Assembly (NCBI GenBank): GCA_018873225.1
Contig: JAEILZ010000009.1
Span: 611,501-675,500, forward strand
Direction of reading: 5' to 3'
DNA: 64,000 nucleotides
Source of the DNA: [Phialemoniopsis] sp. UDSM-2020
Lineage: Eukaryota > Ascomycota > Sordariomycetes > Thyridiales > Thyridiaceae
Part shown: one piece after another, positions 8,797 to 49,912 of the stretch
How positions within the stretch are numbered: position 1 is the first letter of the stretch
How the letters are laid out: each line of letters starts with the position of its first letter
Translations under genes and position numbers: made by a program
The notes under the pieces: model-generated
What the model was told of the DNA's origin: nothing
Database searches by the model: none
Seen by the model: the letters and a program-made list of their open reading frames with translations, nothing else

Positions 8797-10855
8797 TCAT
8801 TCTTGCTTTTTTCGCTGGACACATGGCTTTGCTGGCTCAAGCCCTGCATCACGTCGTGGAGATGGTGCTTCCTCGGCCGTGATTACAGGATCTGCCGCAT
8901 TCTGAGATGATGAAGGGGAGGAATCCGTCTCGCTGCCGCCAGCTTTTTGCTTTTCCTCCCAAGCCCTGTACACGCGAACAATGTCAGTCTACCACACCAC
9001 GTCCTTGTCGGCCCTCGGACCACGGCCCAACGCACGAAAACAGCAAAATGAACGAGGTCATCGGGAGAAAATCGCTCAGCATATTCCATCTCGACCTGCC
9101 GCCTCGTCGACCGAAGAGCGGTAAAGCTTCACTTGAAAGCAGACCGGTGAAGCAGTGGAGTAGTCGGACATCGGCTTCAGACTGGCCAGGTCAGTACGAC
9201 GGAAACTCGCCGTCGATCGCCTTGACCTTGACAGCCGGTATCAGAGTAGCGTCTGGGTAAAAAGCATGCATTTGAAGCACTCGTCCCGCTGTTGGGCTTC
9301 CTTCTGGCGGTATTCGATTCGACCGACGTGTCATGACTACAGGAGCCACGACAGCGCAGCCATGCAGATTGTTCCGCACACCCCTGGCCCGCACAGGCTG
9401 ACGCGACGCTAATAATGGAGCTGCAACGTGCAAGAGTGATACCATTCGACCGCAATGGGGCTTGTTATTTGATACCGCTTTCCCAAACCTTGGGTATAGA
9501 TGCAGCTCTTCTCTCACCGGCTGCCATATCCAGCTCGCCTTGACGGATATCATGGCGTCCGTGTGTCTCGGCACTTCGCTACCCATATTGGGCATCGACC
9601 CGCCTTGCGAAGACAATCCGGGTCATCTTGACTCCCCACTAGGGGAACGGCGAACTCAGCCATGATGATCTTTGCCTTTGCACCAGTGCCAGGAACCAGA
9701 GAGCTCCCTGCATCTCTCTCCCACCCAGGCGAGTTGGCATCAGCCATCATATGCTATTGAAGTCTCTAGGGGCCGTTTGATCATCGGGTGCACCCAAGGA
9801 GGTGTCGTCCTGGCACCACATATGCACTGCGATATGCAAAGTTGCCTTAAATCAAAACCTGGGGAATCGTGGAGAAAGGCAATCAGAGGTGCCAGTGCCC
9901 TCAACGTCCGCCCTGCTTATCACCAGGAGGCAGACATGGAAAGCCAACTTGGATGCCCAACGCAGGTCTGCTGAGAGACACGACGCATAAGTGCATTTAT
10001 GAGATGCTGTCCCATATAGCAAGCCTGGACACATGCGAAAGAAAACGAAAGAAACAGGGTGCTGAATAAGTTGTTCCAGTGCTGTGAGTCCCACTTGGGT
10101 CTCCGAATGCATCACGAGACGTCGAAGCCAATGACAATAGCATCGTGTTTTGGGCTGAGAATATGGGGGCACAACAGAACATTGGGGCTCAAGTGATTAC
10201 CTACCGTTCTCGAGCCATGGCCAACTCCTGTTGTCGAAAGTACTACGGCCTAGGTCAGCATCTTGCCAGTCTCGACAGAAAGGACCCTCGCATGAGTGAC
10301 TCACTTCTGCTCGCTGTGCTCTCAGCTGGGCACAGAGTCGGAGCGTCTTGATCTCGATCGGAGTGAGTGGTCGGTCTTTGGGCAAGGCAACGCCAGGCGC
10401 TCGCACAAGAGGATAAGGTATCTCTGCGTTGGGTCCGCCTTGCTTGGGTGTGTTTGATCTTGATCCTCCTCGCTTCAACGCCGCATTTTCCGGGCTCTCG
10501 ACGGATCGAGAAGCAGAACCAGCGGTGGTCTCTGGCTGCAAGTTGAGTGCAGCAAAATCTCGGACCGCGATATCATTGTCGGTCAGTTCTGCTTGTCATC
10601 GTCAGCGATACACAGTAGGAGTGGCGTTGTCTTGGGCTGGCTTACTTTGGTCGGCCTGCTCCGGGTCGGCCTGCAACGCTACAGTCAGCTTTCTGCGAGA
10701 CAAAGCATGGATACACTCGAGGCTGCATTAGTAGCAATCGATGTACAGACCTGGCTTGCACCGGACAGACGTGGGTCAGTCCGACGTGCCGGGGCAGCGT
10801 CGTGCTTGGATGAGCCGTTCATGGTGCGCTTGACATTTCTCGTGGAAGAGTGCAT
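8797..10855 (-). CDS. Conserved-looking small protein, five exons, function unknown
   Basis: Reconstructed by hand from frame-preserving splice sites. Exons on the minus strand: 10855-10751, 10670-10646 (25 nt), 10588-10305, 9095-9001 and 8965-8797, giving 225 aa. A second in-frame ATG at 10822 would give 214 aa. Introns 1 and 2 have clear branch points (GCTGAC) and CAG acceptors. The protein has a polar N-terminus, a Ser/Pro-rich middle, then the segment RPLTPIEIKTLRLCAQLRAQ, which runs into VEMEYAERFSPDDLVHFAVF as a likely helical domain. It ends in an acidic, Ser-rich tail (SETDSSPSSSQNAADP). I do not recognise the family. Intron 3 (9096-10304, 1209 nt) is exceptionally long for such a genome, so an additional exon may be missed there. 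Intron 4 (8966-9000, 35 nt) is exceptionally short. The reading frames of exons 1-3 are the best supported part. Confidence 0.6.
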
Positions 10856-39311: not shown

Positions 39312-39911
39312 CGTGAAGAGCAATTGTGGGGTGACTTGGCTGAGCGAGAGATGGATGCCGCGACAGGTGGTGGCAGCTCAGGTGAGAAGAGATGACCAAG
39401 ACACAGGCATACTCATGATAGAGAGGACAGTTGAGGTTATCGTCGTCACACAGCGCGGTCTTTCCGAATTGGGAATGTTTGTGCGATCCTGTGTAGCATC
39501 AGGCAGGTACAGTGTTGTGAGTGTTTACTTTGGGGTTCCTGTTTTGAGTCTAGCGTCGCCAGTTGACAACCAGCATCCATTGAAGCTCAAGTGCTCCGTT
39601 TCTTTATGTTCCAGCGGCTCTTTTTAGTGGTCCGGCAGGTGCTGGTCAGCACTTCCGCGGAGGGCGTCACTCGTCATTTTGACAAGCAACTGCCCCACTC
39701 TGCCCTCGGCGGTTGCTTATTAGTGGCCATCACGGGCGCCGCCCAACATCGGATCTCATCTCGAGGCCTTGCCACATCTACTCAAGACGGCTCCCTGACA
39801 AACTCAACTCATCGAATTCATTATCTGGCAACGACTCTGCATCTGCTATGCAGAACTCATCATCTTGAAAGCTCTCAGGGGTGTGGTTAAGGCCACTGCG
39901 TTGTGCCAAGG
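39312..39911. promoter_or_regulatory. Divergent promoter region (wdr8 / molybdenum-cofactor gene)
   Basis: 600 bp between two divergent start codons, so it must hold both promoters and leaders. No TATA box or known operator is obvious. Confidence 0.5.
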
Positions 39912-41255
39912 ATGAGAACGGCCCTTGACTCGGTGCGCCTCGCACCGAGAGCCGCACAGCATCTCCGTCCCGGGATCTCCAGGAGTCGCTCTCAGCTCCC
40001 GATTGGTCACGCCAGAAGCATCGGTACGAGTATAACTCTGAGGAAGCCTATCAGAGAGGAAGCCGGGGTCAGCAAGCCTGAGCTCATCCCGGGCGCGGTA
40101 CAGAACATCTCACGGCGCGAGAGGGTCAAACACGCGAAGCCGTTTTCTGATTTCCTCACGGACAATTTCAACCGCCAGCATGACTATCTGCGCATATCAG
40201 TCACGGAGCGTTGTAACTTGCGCTGTGTTTATTGCATGCCGGAGGAGGGCGTACCCCTGAGTCCTCCTCGGGAGCTGTTGACCACGCCGGAGATCGTCTT
40301 GCTCTCGTCTGTCTTCGTCTCGCAGGGCGTAACAAAGATCCGGTTAACAGGAGGCGAACCAACGGTACGCCGAGACATCGTCCCCCTCATGCAGCAGATC
40401 GGAGATCTGCGGCGTCACGGTCTCCGCGAACTATGCCTCACGACGAATGGGCTGTCACTGCATCGCAAACTAGAGAGCATGGTCGAGGCCGGCCTGACGG
40501 GAGTCAACCTGAGCCTCGACACTCTAGATCCGTGGCAGTTCCAGATCATGGCGAGGCGGAAGGGTTTCGATGCAGTGCAGCGCAGTATAGCGCGCATCTT
40601 GGAGCTCAACCGCGCCGGCGCGGGAATCAAACTCAAGATCAACTGCGTCGTCATGCGCGGTGTGAACGACAGGGAGATCCTTCCCTTCGTGGAGATGACT
40701 CGTGAGAAGGACATCGAGATCCGGTTCATCGAGTACATGCCTTTTGACGGCAACAAGTGGAGCAAGGGCAAGATGTTCAGCTACGAAGAGATGCTCGAGC
40801 ACATCAGGGAGAAGTACCCTGCACTTGAGAAGGTCCGGGATCACAAGAACGATACCAGCAAAACTTGGCATATACCGGGCTTTGCAGGACGGATAGGGTT
40901 CATTACGAGTATGACACACAACTTTTGCGGAACATGCAACAGACTGAGAATCACGGGCGATGGCAACCTTAAGGTCTGTCTATTCGGCAATGCCGAAGTT
41001 TCCCTGCGAGACATTCTTCGCAAGATCAACAACGGCGAGCCCATCGACGAGGAGGCATTGGCGACCCTGAAGCAGCTTGCGCTGGCCCAGAGGCAGGACT
41101 TGTCGAATATTGATGTGCTGTTGACCATGGCTCCCAATTCCAAGGAGCTACTGGAGGTCATTGGCGCGGCAGTCAAGAGGAAGAAGGAGAAGCATGCCGG
41201 AATCGGTGAGCTGGAGCATATGAAGAACAGGCCGATGATTCTCATAGGTGGGTAG
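39912..41255 (+). CDS. cnxABC: GTP 3',8-cyclase (MoaA / MOCS1A), mitochondrial radical-SAM enzyme
   Basis: First step of molybdenum-cofactor synthesis: a radical-SAM rearrangement of GTP to 3',8-cyclo-GTP. Uninterrupted frame of 447 aa. The ATG at 39912 opens an Arg/Ser-rich presequence of about 45 residues, consistent with the mitochondrial location of this step in eukaryotes. The SAM cluster uses Cys 101, 105 and 108 (CNLRCVYC), followed by the RLTGGEP loop. The second [4Fe-4S] cluster that binds GTP uses Cys 339, 342 and 356. The protein ends ILIGG-stop; the terminal Gly-Gly is essential in MoaA/MOCS1A. The two glycine codons overlap a GTGGGT splice donor at 41248, so splicing would remove the stop and continue into the downstream MoaC frame. 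Aspergillus cnxABC and human MOCS1 also combine both activities in one gene. Confidence 0.95.
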   Translation: MRTALDSVRLAPRAAQHLRPGISRSRSQLPIGHARSIGTSITLRKPIREEAGVSKPELIPGAVQNISRRERVKHAKPFSDFLTDNFNRQHDYLRISVTERCNLRCVYCMPEEGVPLSPPRELLTTPEIVLLSSVFVSQGVTKIRLTGGEPTVRRDIVPLMQQIGDLRRHGLRELCLTTNGLSLHRKLESMVEAGLTGVNLSLDTLDPWQFQIMARRKGFDAVQRSIARILELNRAGAGIKLKINCVVMRGVNDREILPFVEMTREKDIEIRFIEYMPFDGNKWSKGKMFSYEEMLEHIREKYPALEKVRDHKNDTSKTWHIPGFAGRIGFITSMTHNFCGTCNRLRITGDGNLKVCLFGNAEVSLRDILRKINNGEPIDEEALATLKQLALAQRQDLSNIDVLLTMAPNSKELLEVIGAAVKRKKEKHAGIGELEHMKNRPMILIGG

Positions 41256-41429
41256 AAGATTCCGCTCCGTTCACACGCCATATACCTTTGCATCGCCCTT
41301 CGATGCTCTATTATCCCCATCTGGTGTACACCCCTCGATTCCGTCCTGGCGAGCTCCGAGTCGAGTTCATACGCGATATGAACTAAGGAGGTAATACAGA
41401 CCCTACACATCACCAACAGACGACACTAG

Positions 41430-42340
41430 CCACTGTTACCTGGAGGCCCATCGGACTGGCCGGCACTACATTCGCAAACAACCCTACGACCTTGATCCGG
41501 AAATCAACAGCATTCATAACTGCTCGTGCTTCCCACGGCCAACATGCACCGACCGCACGTCTGTTCTCAACTTCAGGAAGACGGTATGGCGACGAGCAAA
41601 TCAGCGAGGTTAAGCTCAGCAGAAATCAGGCCAAACGGCTGAAGGCCAAGATGGAGAAGGCCAGTAAGGCCGAAGAAACACCAGTCGACCCAGAAGCGCC
41701 CCCGGACAAGCAAGGCAGCAAGTTTACGCTCAGCCAAAAGAAGGCCAAGAGAGAGAAGGCCAAAAGAGAGAAGGCCGAGATGGAGAGGGCCAAGATGGAC
41801 AACGCCATTAAGGCAAAGAAACCACCAGCCAACCCCAAGGCGCCCAAGCTCACACACGTCTCCCCCGCGGGCACCGCGCACATGGTCTCCATCTCCGCCA
41901 AGAAGGTCACCTCGCGCATCGCAACCGCCGTCTGCGCCGTGCGCTTCTCCCACGGCAGCCCCGCGGGGCGCCTCATCCGCGCCAACGAGATGCGCAAGGG
42001 CGACGTCCTGGGAGTGGCGCGCGTCGCCGGCATCATGGCCGCCAAGCGCACGCCGGACCTCATCCCACTGTGCCACCCCGTCGCCGTGTCGCACGTCGCC
42101 GTCGAGCTCAACGTCGCGGCCGACGATATGGCCGTAGAGGTCCGCGCCACGGTCGAGTGCGACGGCAAGACGGGCGTCGAGATGGAGGCGCTGACGGCCG
42201 CGAGCACGGCGGCGCTGACGGTGTACGACATGTGCAAGGCCGTGGACAAGGGTATGCGGATCAAGGGGCTACGGGTCGTGCTCAAGGACGGGGGCAAGAG
42301 CGGGCGGTGGGTAGAGGGCATGCAGCAGGGCGGTTCGTAG
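41430..42340 (+). CDS. cnxABC: Cyclic pyranopterin monophosphate synthase (MoaC / MOCS1B) part
   Basis: Converts 3',8-cyclo-GTP to cPMP. Read as the second exon of the MoaA gene: donor at 41248, acceptor CACTAG ending at 41429, intron 182 nt. The frame closes as ATA-G|CC-ACT, giving a 748-aa fusion. The first 40 residues of this exon include TARLFSTSGRRY, which looks like a mitochondrial presequence. A charged Lys/Glu/Ala-rich linker (KKAKREKAKREKAEMERAKM) follows, then the MoaC domain: LIPLCHPVAVSHV, CDGKTGVEMEALTA and YDMCKAVDKGM. No good ATG precedes the domain except Met within the linker (41651), so independent translation seems less likely than fusion by splicing. Confidence 0.9.
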
Positions 42341-46966: not shown

Positions 46967-47930
46967 ATGGCAACGCAGTTCATAATGCCAAAGGCGCCGG
47001 GTCCTGCGCAAAACAACTTTCACCAGGCACAACACACCCAGTTGCCGCCTTTCCAGTCTTCTCACTACAACCCCAATTACCGGAGCAGCCCTCAGATCTC
47101 GCCTCTGAGCACGATGAGCTCCTCGACCGGCTCCTCTCCAACTTCTCCCAAGCCACGATGCGCACGCCAGCTACCTCCTTCATACATCCCCGCCGTTCTG
47201 CGCCCGACCCAGCACTCTTGCAAGGCGCCCTATGCGAGGCAGAAGACCGAGGAAGAGGCCGTTGACGATGATGCGCCACCGCGCTCGAGCGGCAGCTTCA
47301 TCAGTCTGCCCGGCTTGGCCGCGATCGGCATTAGCCGCCTGAGCAGACGCTCTACTGGCGATAGCGGCAAGTGTGTCGACGGAAGCTGGAATCTGGACCA
47401 GTTCCCCGAGGTCAAGGGTCTCCCATCGAGGGATCACTGGAAGGTACGCTGCCCCGGTCGCCATTCCTTCGAATGACACAGCTTGTTTTTTGAGCGCAAA
47501 CTAACTCACACGACCATAGCCCGACCCCGACTCGACCATCTGTGACGAGCCCACGTGCAAGCGACACTTCACCTACTTCAACCGGCGCCACCACTGCCGG
47601 CGCTGTGGTAACATCTTCTGCGACATGCACTCCGCATTCGAGGTCCCCCTCGACGAGAACGCCAACTACAACCCCCGCGGCTCTCCCTCCCGCTCCTGCT
47701 CCCACTGCTACAGCGAGTTCAAGTCGTGGCGCAGCCGGGCCAACAGCGAGTCCTCATCGACCTCGTCGGTGGACTCTCAAGGACCTGCGACGCCTCTCAC
47801 TCAGCATACGGTCTCTACAGCCCCGACTACCCCCGTAGTCGCCTGCAAGAGCGGCGGTCTGAACCCGCCAAAGGCACCAGCCGAGGTCGCCATGAGCGTG
47901 CCGCGGGACTGGAACTGGAGCACGTTCTAG
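46967..47930 (+). CDS. FYVE zinc-finger protein
   Basis: Exons 46967-47443 and 47520-47930 (295 aa); the intron has a GTACGC donor, CTAACTCAC branch point and ATAG acceptor. The N-terminal half is Ser/Pro/Gln-rich and probably disordered. The FYVE domain begins at WKPDPDSTICDEPTC (exon junction after Trp-Lys). It has the basic RRHHCRRCG patch that contacts phosphatidylinositol 3-phosphate, and the zinc ligands continue through IFC and SCSHC (in place of the usual RVC). It should bind PI3P on endosomal or vacuolar membranes. The protein ends MSVPRDWNWSTF-TAG. The same frame stays open for another 51 codons beyond that TAG, described separately. Confidence 0.88.
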
Positions 47931-48086
47931 GTGAACGACGATTATCTCTTCAGTCCTACTCCACCGCCGCCAGAGATGCTCTTCCCGTTCACAGAGGCCG
48001 ACGTCACAGATCCGGCCAAACGCCTGTACGATCTGGGGCGGCGCAAGGAGATTGACGCTTTCTTCACCGCAAAGGATCTAAAGTGA
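47928..48086 (+). other. In-frame extension beyond the FYVE gene stop, with stop codon in a hairpin loop
   Basis: After TAG (47928-47930) the same frame runs 51 codons to TGA (48084-48086): VNDDYLFSPTPPPPEMLFPF, then TEADVTDPAKRLYDLGRRKE and IDAFFTAKDLK. Codon choice and composition look coding. The TAG sits in the loop of a perfect stem, CGTTC-TAGGT-GAACG (47923-47937). Recoding of the stop to Trp by A-to-I editing, or read-through, would give a 347-aa protein. A weak alternative is splicing with a GTCGCC donor in the preceding codons and CTAG as acceptor. Confidence 0.55.
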
Positions 48087-49912
48087 ACTCTTGGGGTCTT
48101 GCTTTCCCTTTTCACAGCCAGCCGAGCGATTTATGAGTTTGGTTGCAATTACTGCGATATACCCAACTACGATATTCCGACACATACTACACCGCCTCAC
48201 CCTCCAAGGCCCATCCATTGCCTGTTCACCAACTATGGCTTTGCTAATTCACACAAACGATGGCTGGCCTCTGAACACACAATCCTCTCAACATCTCACC
48301 ACTATCGACCTGACATGATCAGTCAATGAGTATAGACGGAGTGTTTTATATCCCTCTTTCTCTCTACTATTGCTAGCAAGCATGACTTGATGGACATGAC
48401 CTACTAGACGATTGGGGCATTGGCACAAAGACATCTCTCTGCGAGATGATCTGCCATCCTCAGCATTTGCATTTTAATTTCCCTTTGGACTCCTGTTCTT
48501 GGATGTCCCTTGCACAGCAGTGGCGTTTCGGTGCGTTTCTATACCTGGGATATAGATCTGGGGGGTTTCTGTTTTACCGGCGAGATTTCTTTTCCAATTT
48601 TTTGCAAGCCTTTTTTATATACCCTTCCCCCTTTCGGGAGGATGTGTGATGTGCACATCATCATGGGAACTGGAGTTTGATATTGCCGTCTTTCATTGCA
48701 TTTGAACTCAAGGAGCACTTCTCACAGTGGCCCTCCCAACCCAGTCTGATATAGAAGGGAGGGCAGTGCTTTTGATCATCTCTTGCTAGCCTTTGGGACA
48801 CATGCATTGGGTCGGTTGCTTGATACGTCAAGCTGCTTGAAGACTAGACAGATACCATGAAGTTAATGAAAGGAAGACTGAATACCTGCAATTACTTGAC
48901 CTGTCCCCACTGTCCCTTACACGTGGTGCTTGATTGTGCCAATGTCTCTTACCATCCAGCCCGCCTGCAGTAAGGGGCATGATATTTACAAAGGGCCTTC
49001 AGATTCCTTTGGCATGGATCTGATGCTAAGGACGAAAAAGTGCCTTGCTATAAAGCCTCATTAAGCAAAAAGAGATAAGGCAAACAAAAATACTAAAAAA
49101 GGAAACACCAGGTGGCCAGCCTGTACACATTCAGGGGAGAGGAGAGGGGTTATACTTTGCTTACCTTCTACGCCAGTTTTGCCAGGCTTTTGATCACGGT
49201 AGCGATCAGGGTTTATCGGTGACTGAATGTCATCGGTGATGTGGTTTATTTATGAAGAGGTTTATGATCGCAATCGATCACAAAGTACAAGTCGAAGTAA
49301 GTTTCTGGCTGCAGTCCAGAATCGAACAGGAGACTTAGAAAGTACCGTCTCGTGAGATTACGGTGTGCAATACTAGAGAAGGTGTTAGTTTAGAGGGCCA
49401 TCAGTGTGATCACGATGCTGTACAGGCTGGCCAACCTGGTGTTGTTGAGGTAATGATCAAAATCTCAAGACTGATAAGTGGGACGGGCAGGCATCAAGCC
49501 AGGCCAGACATCACACTCACCACTCACATCACGAAGAGGTGCTTCTGCAGAGAATAGGATTTCAAATTTCCGCTAATATCAAATAACGCCAGTCACATGT
49601 ATCCCGCGCCTCCTTTCCTTTTTTCGCTCCCTTTTTGATGCTCCGGGCTGCATGGCAGCAGCAAGCCCCATGGTTGCCACGTCTATATCTCTAGACCTCA
49701 TCCCCCTGCTGTCGTCTTCCTTCACTCTAGTTCTTCTATCGCTCGCCATTTTGTTCTGAAAAGGACACAAAATACAATTCGACTTGCTGTTTGGGAAAGC
49801 ACGAATGCCAAGTATGGTGAGTGCACATCAGCTGCACTCGATGACGGCCAGGTTATTGTCGTCTCCGCTTCCTTGACCCCGTCAACACGACTCATCGCCT
49901 TTCGCATCCCCT
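48087..49912. other. Convergent 3' intergenic region
   Basis: About 1.8 kb between the FYVE gene (+) and the elongase gene (-). AT-rich with T-runs near 48590-48620. No coding signal. Confidence 0.55.

Follow-up and report, generated by a model that had tools for sequence, protein, structure and literature searches.

The window, that is, the whole 64,000-nucleotide stretch of DNA that was analyzed, belongs to a genome of 44.2 Mb in 11 contigs and carries, at positions 46967-47930, a gene of two exons and one intron that encodes a FYVE protein of 295 aa. The parts of the gene are listed below.

46967-47443, plus strand: exon 1 of the FYVE gene, 159 codons (ATG-initiated frame with a phase-0 join to exon 2)
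47444-47519, plus strand: intron of 76 bases in phase 0, GTACGC...ACTAAC...CATAG (donor, branch-like site, and acceptor)
47520-47930, plus strand: exon 2 to the TAG, 136 codons, with the FYVE zinc finger and the conserved tail SVPRDWNWSTF
approximately 47523-47723, plus strand: FYVE zinc finger (PF01363, E 5e-15)
47928-47930, plus strand: canonical TAG stop with the candidate edited A at 47929 (from the frame and the context at positions -2 to +4)

The intron is supported by the alignment of homologues to the spliced product, and exon 1 additionally by the best homologues, which span 84-85% of the query. The hallmark of FYVE domains is an R(R/K)HHCR motif together with cysteine ligands. Exon 2 contains RRHHCRRCG, and RRHHCR, C29, and G30 are invariant across 36 aligned rows (the window and 35 of the 120 listed homologues). 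The PF01363 match scores 55.8 bits against a cut-off of 27.8, and the nearest solved chain is Vps27 (1vfy_A, E 1.8e-10). As judged by these matches, the gene product is a small FYVE protein (PI3P-type zinc finger) with putative PI3P binding. It shares the PF01363 match with the FYVE domains of the Vps27/EEA1 type and, as the names of its homologues indicate, is akin to fungal pep7-like and C9B6.03-like proteins; unlike the Vps27/EEA1-type domains, however, this family has a conserved W-x-W-S-T-F end outside the FYVE domain. The top match from a named species at 84% query coverage (P0002) is 57% identical, whereas P0009, a partial homologue with 89% identity across 46% of the query, indicates that sequence of a close relative exists. 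Named homologues include some from Pleurostoma, Podospora, and Hypoxylon, genera of the Sordariomycetes; the genome is evidently that of a filamentous ascomycete.

Elsewhere in the window, at 39903-42337, MoaA-like radical SAM and MoaC domains are encoded in neighboring plus-strand frames that probably constitute one molybdenum-cofactor gene.

Conserved C-terminus of the FYVE protein

Among the 120 listed homologues (of 622), 118 have W-x-W-S-T-F as their exact C-terminus, 84 end exactly with SVPRDWNWSTF, and none has residues past W-x-W-S-T-F. Nine of the final eleven residues (S, V, P, D, W, W, S, T, and F) are invariant in the window and 35 of the 120 listed homologues. The two listed proteins without the motif are P0009, encoded on a contig of 1070 bases, the final letters of which look like its intron, and P0074, which ends earlier. 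Our literature search returned no mention of WNWSTF. From these alignments, the TAG is the true and widely conserved end of the FYVE protein and, because 118 homologues stop at the same residue, not a premature stop; therefore, any editing at this site would be stop-loss editing of a canonical stop.

The same comparison bears on the possibility of a recent nonsense mutation that left the former C-terminus behind the TAG as coding-like sequence. Although the frame behind the TAG does look coding, almost all listed homologues end precisely there and none extends further, making this explanation extremely improbable. The reading of the gene as a pseudogene with a premature stop was rejected on the same shared end residue.

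Coding quality of the in-frame tail

Behind the TAG, the frame of exon 2 stays open and is followed by a second stop.

47931-48083, plus strand: in-frame extension of 51 codons with coding-like codon use
48084-48086, plus strand: TGA that closes the extended, open frame

The letters agree with the original prediction, which had placed the TAG in CGTTC-TAGGT-GAACG and followed the open frame over 51 codons to the TGA. Its read-through form of 347 aa was also reproduced once the phase-0 intron was removed: the spliced frame is 295 aa long to the TAG, and read-through adds 52 residues, a W at the TAG and 51 more, with the sequence ...STFWVNDDYLFS... across the former stop. The 347-aa form contains a proline-rich stretch, and its end is possibly helical. 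In a structure model of exon 2 plus the tail (188 residues, mean pLDDT 58.7, insufficient for fold searching), a low-confidence helix occupies residues 165-187.

For codon use, a scoring model was derived from 264 kb of the same genome, with 51 long frames as its training set; these were picked mechanically, and some may be wrong. With a mean of 0.271 bits/codon, the tail exceeded both exon 2 (0.240) and exon 1 (0.141), in line with the good codon bias claimed originally. Scores were -0.14 and -0.22 in the other two forward frames of the tail, between 0.02 and -0.18 in its reverse frames, and between -0.20 and -0.28 in the three frames behind it. In this first test, the tail scored above 73% of 632 coding windows, and its score was attained in 1.2% of 1322 open non-coding windows. 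The open length of the tail alone is not above chance, with 16 of 106 other in-frame stretches behind the stops of long frames also extending over at least 51 codons; none of these 106 combined such length with a score as high as that of the tail. The second test was corrected for the base composition of the tail itself. Here, the score of the tail lay above that of 87% of 427 coding windows and was reached by none of 5000 shuffles. Among 211 post-stop stretches, a set from which the FYVE frame had been displaced by a longer overlapping frame, one reached it while open. The codon use of the tail is thus unusually coding-like, better than chance, and constitutes the strongest evidence in this case.

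The single stretch that reached the score, L025 (plus strand, coding score 0.42), follows a TAA at approximately base 482 and perhaps reflects an intron/exon effect. On the minus strand of L020, a TAG at approximately base 9767 of the reverse complement is followed by 51 open, coding-like codons with a composition-corrected score of 0.24, close to the 0.246 of the FYVE tail; this could be a second stop-loss candidate or an intron artefact.

The main rival to stop-loss editing is that the stop is an ordinary one and the tail a 3' untranslated region, the open frame and codon bias of which are coincidental, with any editing being a low-level, functionless by-product. The end residue shared by the listed homologues, the frequency of equally long post-stop stretches, and the failure of protein searches to find a homologue of the tail all favor this explanation, and some selection was built in, given that the earlier reader had scanned the whole window. 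The outcome of both codon tests and the drop in score in the frames behind the tail argue against coincidence, which we regard as somewhat less probable than editing.

The protein searches that yielded no tail homologue required shared five-letter words and so would miss a diverged tail or one located behind the stops of relatives; a stop conserved in relatives would by itself leave the tail absent from such searches. One tail search gave 9 candidates although many homologues share W-x-W-S-T-F, and its sensitivity is accordingly doubtful. The original prediction had proposed a comparison of orthologues as a check on both the stop and the tail: at the protein level, the stop recurs as described above, but no relative that encodes the tail was found. 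Searches for DNA of relatives gave 40 pattern matches in bacterial and archaeal contigs and 5 in viral contigs, none of which was confirmed. The possibility that the tail is a copy of another genomic sequence was rejected, as a search of the organism's own genome found only the tail itself.

The coding-like tail could also be translated from an alternative transcript, through either an intron that removes the TAG or an alternative last exon. The letters TTCTAG (47925-47930) are similar to a 3' splice site, and an intron ending at 47930 had been named originally among the findings that would overturn the editing hypothesis. However, across 47400-48090 there is only one branch-like site, that of the known intron; a simple consensus scan for donor, branch, and acceptor sites found no intron of 40-400 bases spanning the TAG; and such an intron would cost the protein part of its most conserved sequence. 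We thus consider an alternative transcript unlikely. Programmed ribosomal read-through of the unedited UAG would likewise accommodate a coding-like tail, but TAG followed by GTG is not known as a read-through context, and the end of the tail lacks a peroxisomal PTS1 signal. Fungal read-through extensions are on record for a case that uses a short UGA context (PMC4207609), in contrast to the TAG-GTG found here, and this mechanism appears improbable.

Hairpin, editing context, and editing machinery

The TAG lies within a short inverted repeat.

47923-47937, plus strand: perfect hairpin with a 5-bp stem and the TAG in a 5-nt loop, CGTTC-TAGGT-GAACG

The sequence CGTTCTAGGTGAACG at 47923-47937 forms a stem that is perfect over 5 bp and encloses a loop of 5 nt. 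The stem forms in a 23-nt fold and has a probability of 92-94% in the 61-nt fold (±30 nt), which falls to 26% at ±40 nt, to at most 3% at ±20, 50, 75, 100, and 150 nt, and to 28-36% in the spliced model mRNA of 1625 nt. The probability that A47929 is unpaired varies similarly, being 0.03 at ±20 nt, 0.94-0.98 at ±30 to 50 nt, 0.08 at ±75 nt, and 0.80-0.88 at ±100 and 150 nt; the model mRNA gives 0.47. The stability of the 61-nt fold (z = -1.32) was equaled by 25 of 200 shuffles. Of 4382 TAG trinucleotides, 2.1% are surrounded by a stem of at least 5 bp, as are 4 of the 95 TAGs that end ORFs. The 61-nt fold places the A in a hairpin loop for 40 of these 95 and for 31% of 1500 sampled TAGs. Given the conservation of W-x-W-S-T-F, the S-T-F codons leave the 5' arm of the hairpin little freedom; with this upstream side held fixed, 2.3% of 5000 shuffled downstream sequences yielded an equally good stem. 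Thus, the perfect stem with the TAG in its loop described in the original prediction is present and forms at ±30 nt, but the hairpin is of a common kind and dependent on the folding window. With about 2% of TAGs having an equal stem, it is weak evidence, not better than chance, and adds little.

Fungal A-to-I editing sites show neighbor preferences (PMC9600606), and by these the context of A47929 has the preferred letter at five of six positions (C at -2, U at -1, G at +1, G at +2, and G at +4), U at +3 being the only disfavored one. An equally good context, five of six, was found at 844 of 4402 TAGs in the sample.

The genome was also searched for the marks of an editing system. In L012 (G000:C1:4067000-4069500), a kinase match on the minus strand (C1:4067587-4067775) contains an in-frame TAG followed by TGG, reading D-TAG-TGG-S inside the kinase domain. 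Related kinases presumably have D-W-W-S at this position. In perithecia, the kinase-domain UAGUGG of the Neurospora crassa PUK1 orthologue becomes UGGUGG (PMC4817773), and the kinase in L012 appears from its sequence to be PUK1-like; we infer orthology to PUK1. When the 61 nt around this TAG are folded, the A pairs and does not fall in a loop; the loop rule therefore predicts little here. Editing of FgRID is known from Fusarium graminearum (PMC11156358), but the 5 C-5 methylase matches of the genome studied here contained no in-frame stop.

Two DUF726 genes, L036 (C5:3853316-3854433) and L038 (C1:8507983-8509042), were compared with the residue positions described for Ame1 (PMC11087585). Relative to the active-site Ser, L036 has E (+15), R (+17), D (+58), and H (+98), as well as an M-V pair, whereas its paralogue L038 has R, G, D, and G at the same offsets and L-D in place of M-V. 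The M-V pair of L036 is one residue closer to the Ser than in the published Ame1 spacing (PMC11087585), and the match holds only if a difference in length of one residue is allowed for; such a difference may also be the cause of the missing H in L038. At the sequence level, L036 resembles Ame1, and L038 appears to be without the Ame1-type contact residues. One TAG lies inside the domain match of L038 in a six-frame search, perhaps within an intron. The genome has 8 deaminase-domain matches, among which Tad2 and Tad3 were not singled out. From the PUK1-like TAGTGG and the Ame1-like DUF726 gene, the genome is probably editing-competent.

Proposed stop-loss editing and its precedents

A conserved C-terminus, a coding-like tail, a favorable editing context, and genomic marks of an editing system are all observed for this gene, and we consider the TAG at 47928-47930 a candidate site of sexual-stage stop-loss A-to-I editing, with a probability of about 0.45. 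In vegetative cells, the 295-aa FYVE protein would be made. In fruiting bodies, a Tad2-Tad3-Ame1 complex would deaminate a fraction of A47929, converting UAG to UGG, and on the edited transcripts, ribosomes would add W and 51 further residues to give the 347-aa form. The deamination step has strong precedent; its occurrence and outcome in the FYVE gene, its stage, translation of the tail, and any effect of the tail we infer. A47929 is looped in the 61-nt fold, the window size used in the field, which counts for editing. Counted against it are the word-based protein searches, which produced no tail-bearing relative, the hairpin, which is common and lost in most folding windows, the many other TAGs with an equally good context, the shifted M-V pair of L036, and the poor conservation of individual editing sites between species (PMC5381528). 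The original proposal is thus partly supported, by the UAG, the U at -1, the preferred neighbors at five of six positions, the loop at ±30 nt, the coding-like tail, and the genomic marks; the weight placed on the hairpin is not retained.

Stop-loss editing has been reported for 323 genes in F. graminearum (PMC4817773). In Sordaria macrospora, peptides support stop-loss events in 15 transcripts, among them white collar 1 with a tail of 131 aa, and 73% of these 15 events are conserved in N. crassa (PMC6794485). The FYVE candidate shares with the fungal cases (F. graminearum, N. crassa, and S. macrospora) a canonical UAG, U at -1, favorable neighbors, and an open tail; in contrast to peptide-supported cases such as white collar 1 of S. 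macrospora, it is predicted from DNA sequence. The other established type of stop editing, premature-stop correction, affects PUK1 and another 70 genes in F. graminearum (PMC11156358). The FYVE site would share with this type the in-frame change of UAG to UGG, but its stop is a conserved protein end and does not lie inside a domain. No paper joining FYVE, RNA editing, and perithecia was found in our literature search, nor was FYVE found in literature combining A-to-I RNA editing, stop-loss, and Neurospora. The FYVE gene is thus a new candidate of an established class, strengthened by its tail but unproven.

Fungal stop-loss sites number in the hundreds, but a 2024 review notes that, for sexual reproduction, no function of such editing has been described (PMC11156358). 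A stop located right behind a strongly conserved C-terminal motif and followed by gene-like codons makes a clear test case, in which editing could disable the motif, supply a targeting signal, or have no effect. Judging from this case, how coding-like a tail is may rank stop-loss candidates better than the hairpin.

Near its end, the tail has one further sequence feature.

48057-48077, plus strand: AFFTAKD, a speculative phospho-FFAT (VAP-binding)-like core, by resemblance to the consensus

Phospho-FFAT motifs have an E-F-F-D-A-x-E-like core with S or T at position 4, located after an acidic tract (PMC7610837). The tail ends with AFFTAKD and two further residues and fits the F-F-S/T-A-x-acid core of this consensus (PMC7610837). 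AFFTAKD is preceded by GRRKEID, which is not clearly acidic, and its first residue, A, stands where the canonical motif has E. Because the resemblance was noticed after the fact and the flank is not clearly acidic, we offer it only as a bold reading: editing confined to fruiting bodies would give the PI3P-binding FYVE protein a tail with a phospho-FFAT-like end that binds VAP/Scs2, a protein of the endoplasmic reticulum, and builds contacts between endosomes and this compartment, with the otherwise free C-terminal W-x-W-S-T-F being masked. We consider this very improbable; if true, stage-specific editing would re-target an endosomal protein. In its loose form, the core occurred in 1.1% of 20000 shuffled tails, and the 120 listed family members all lacked it.
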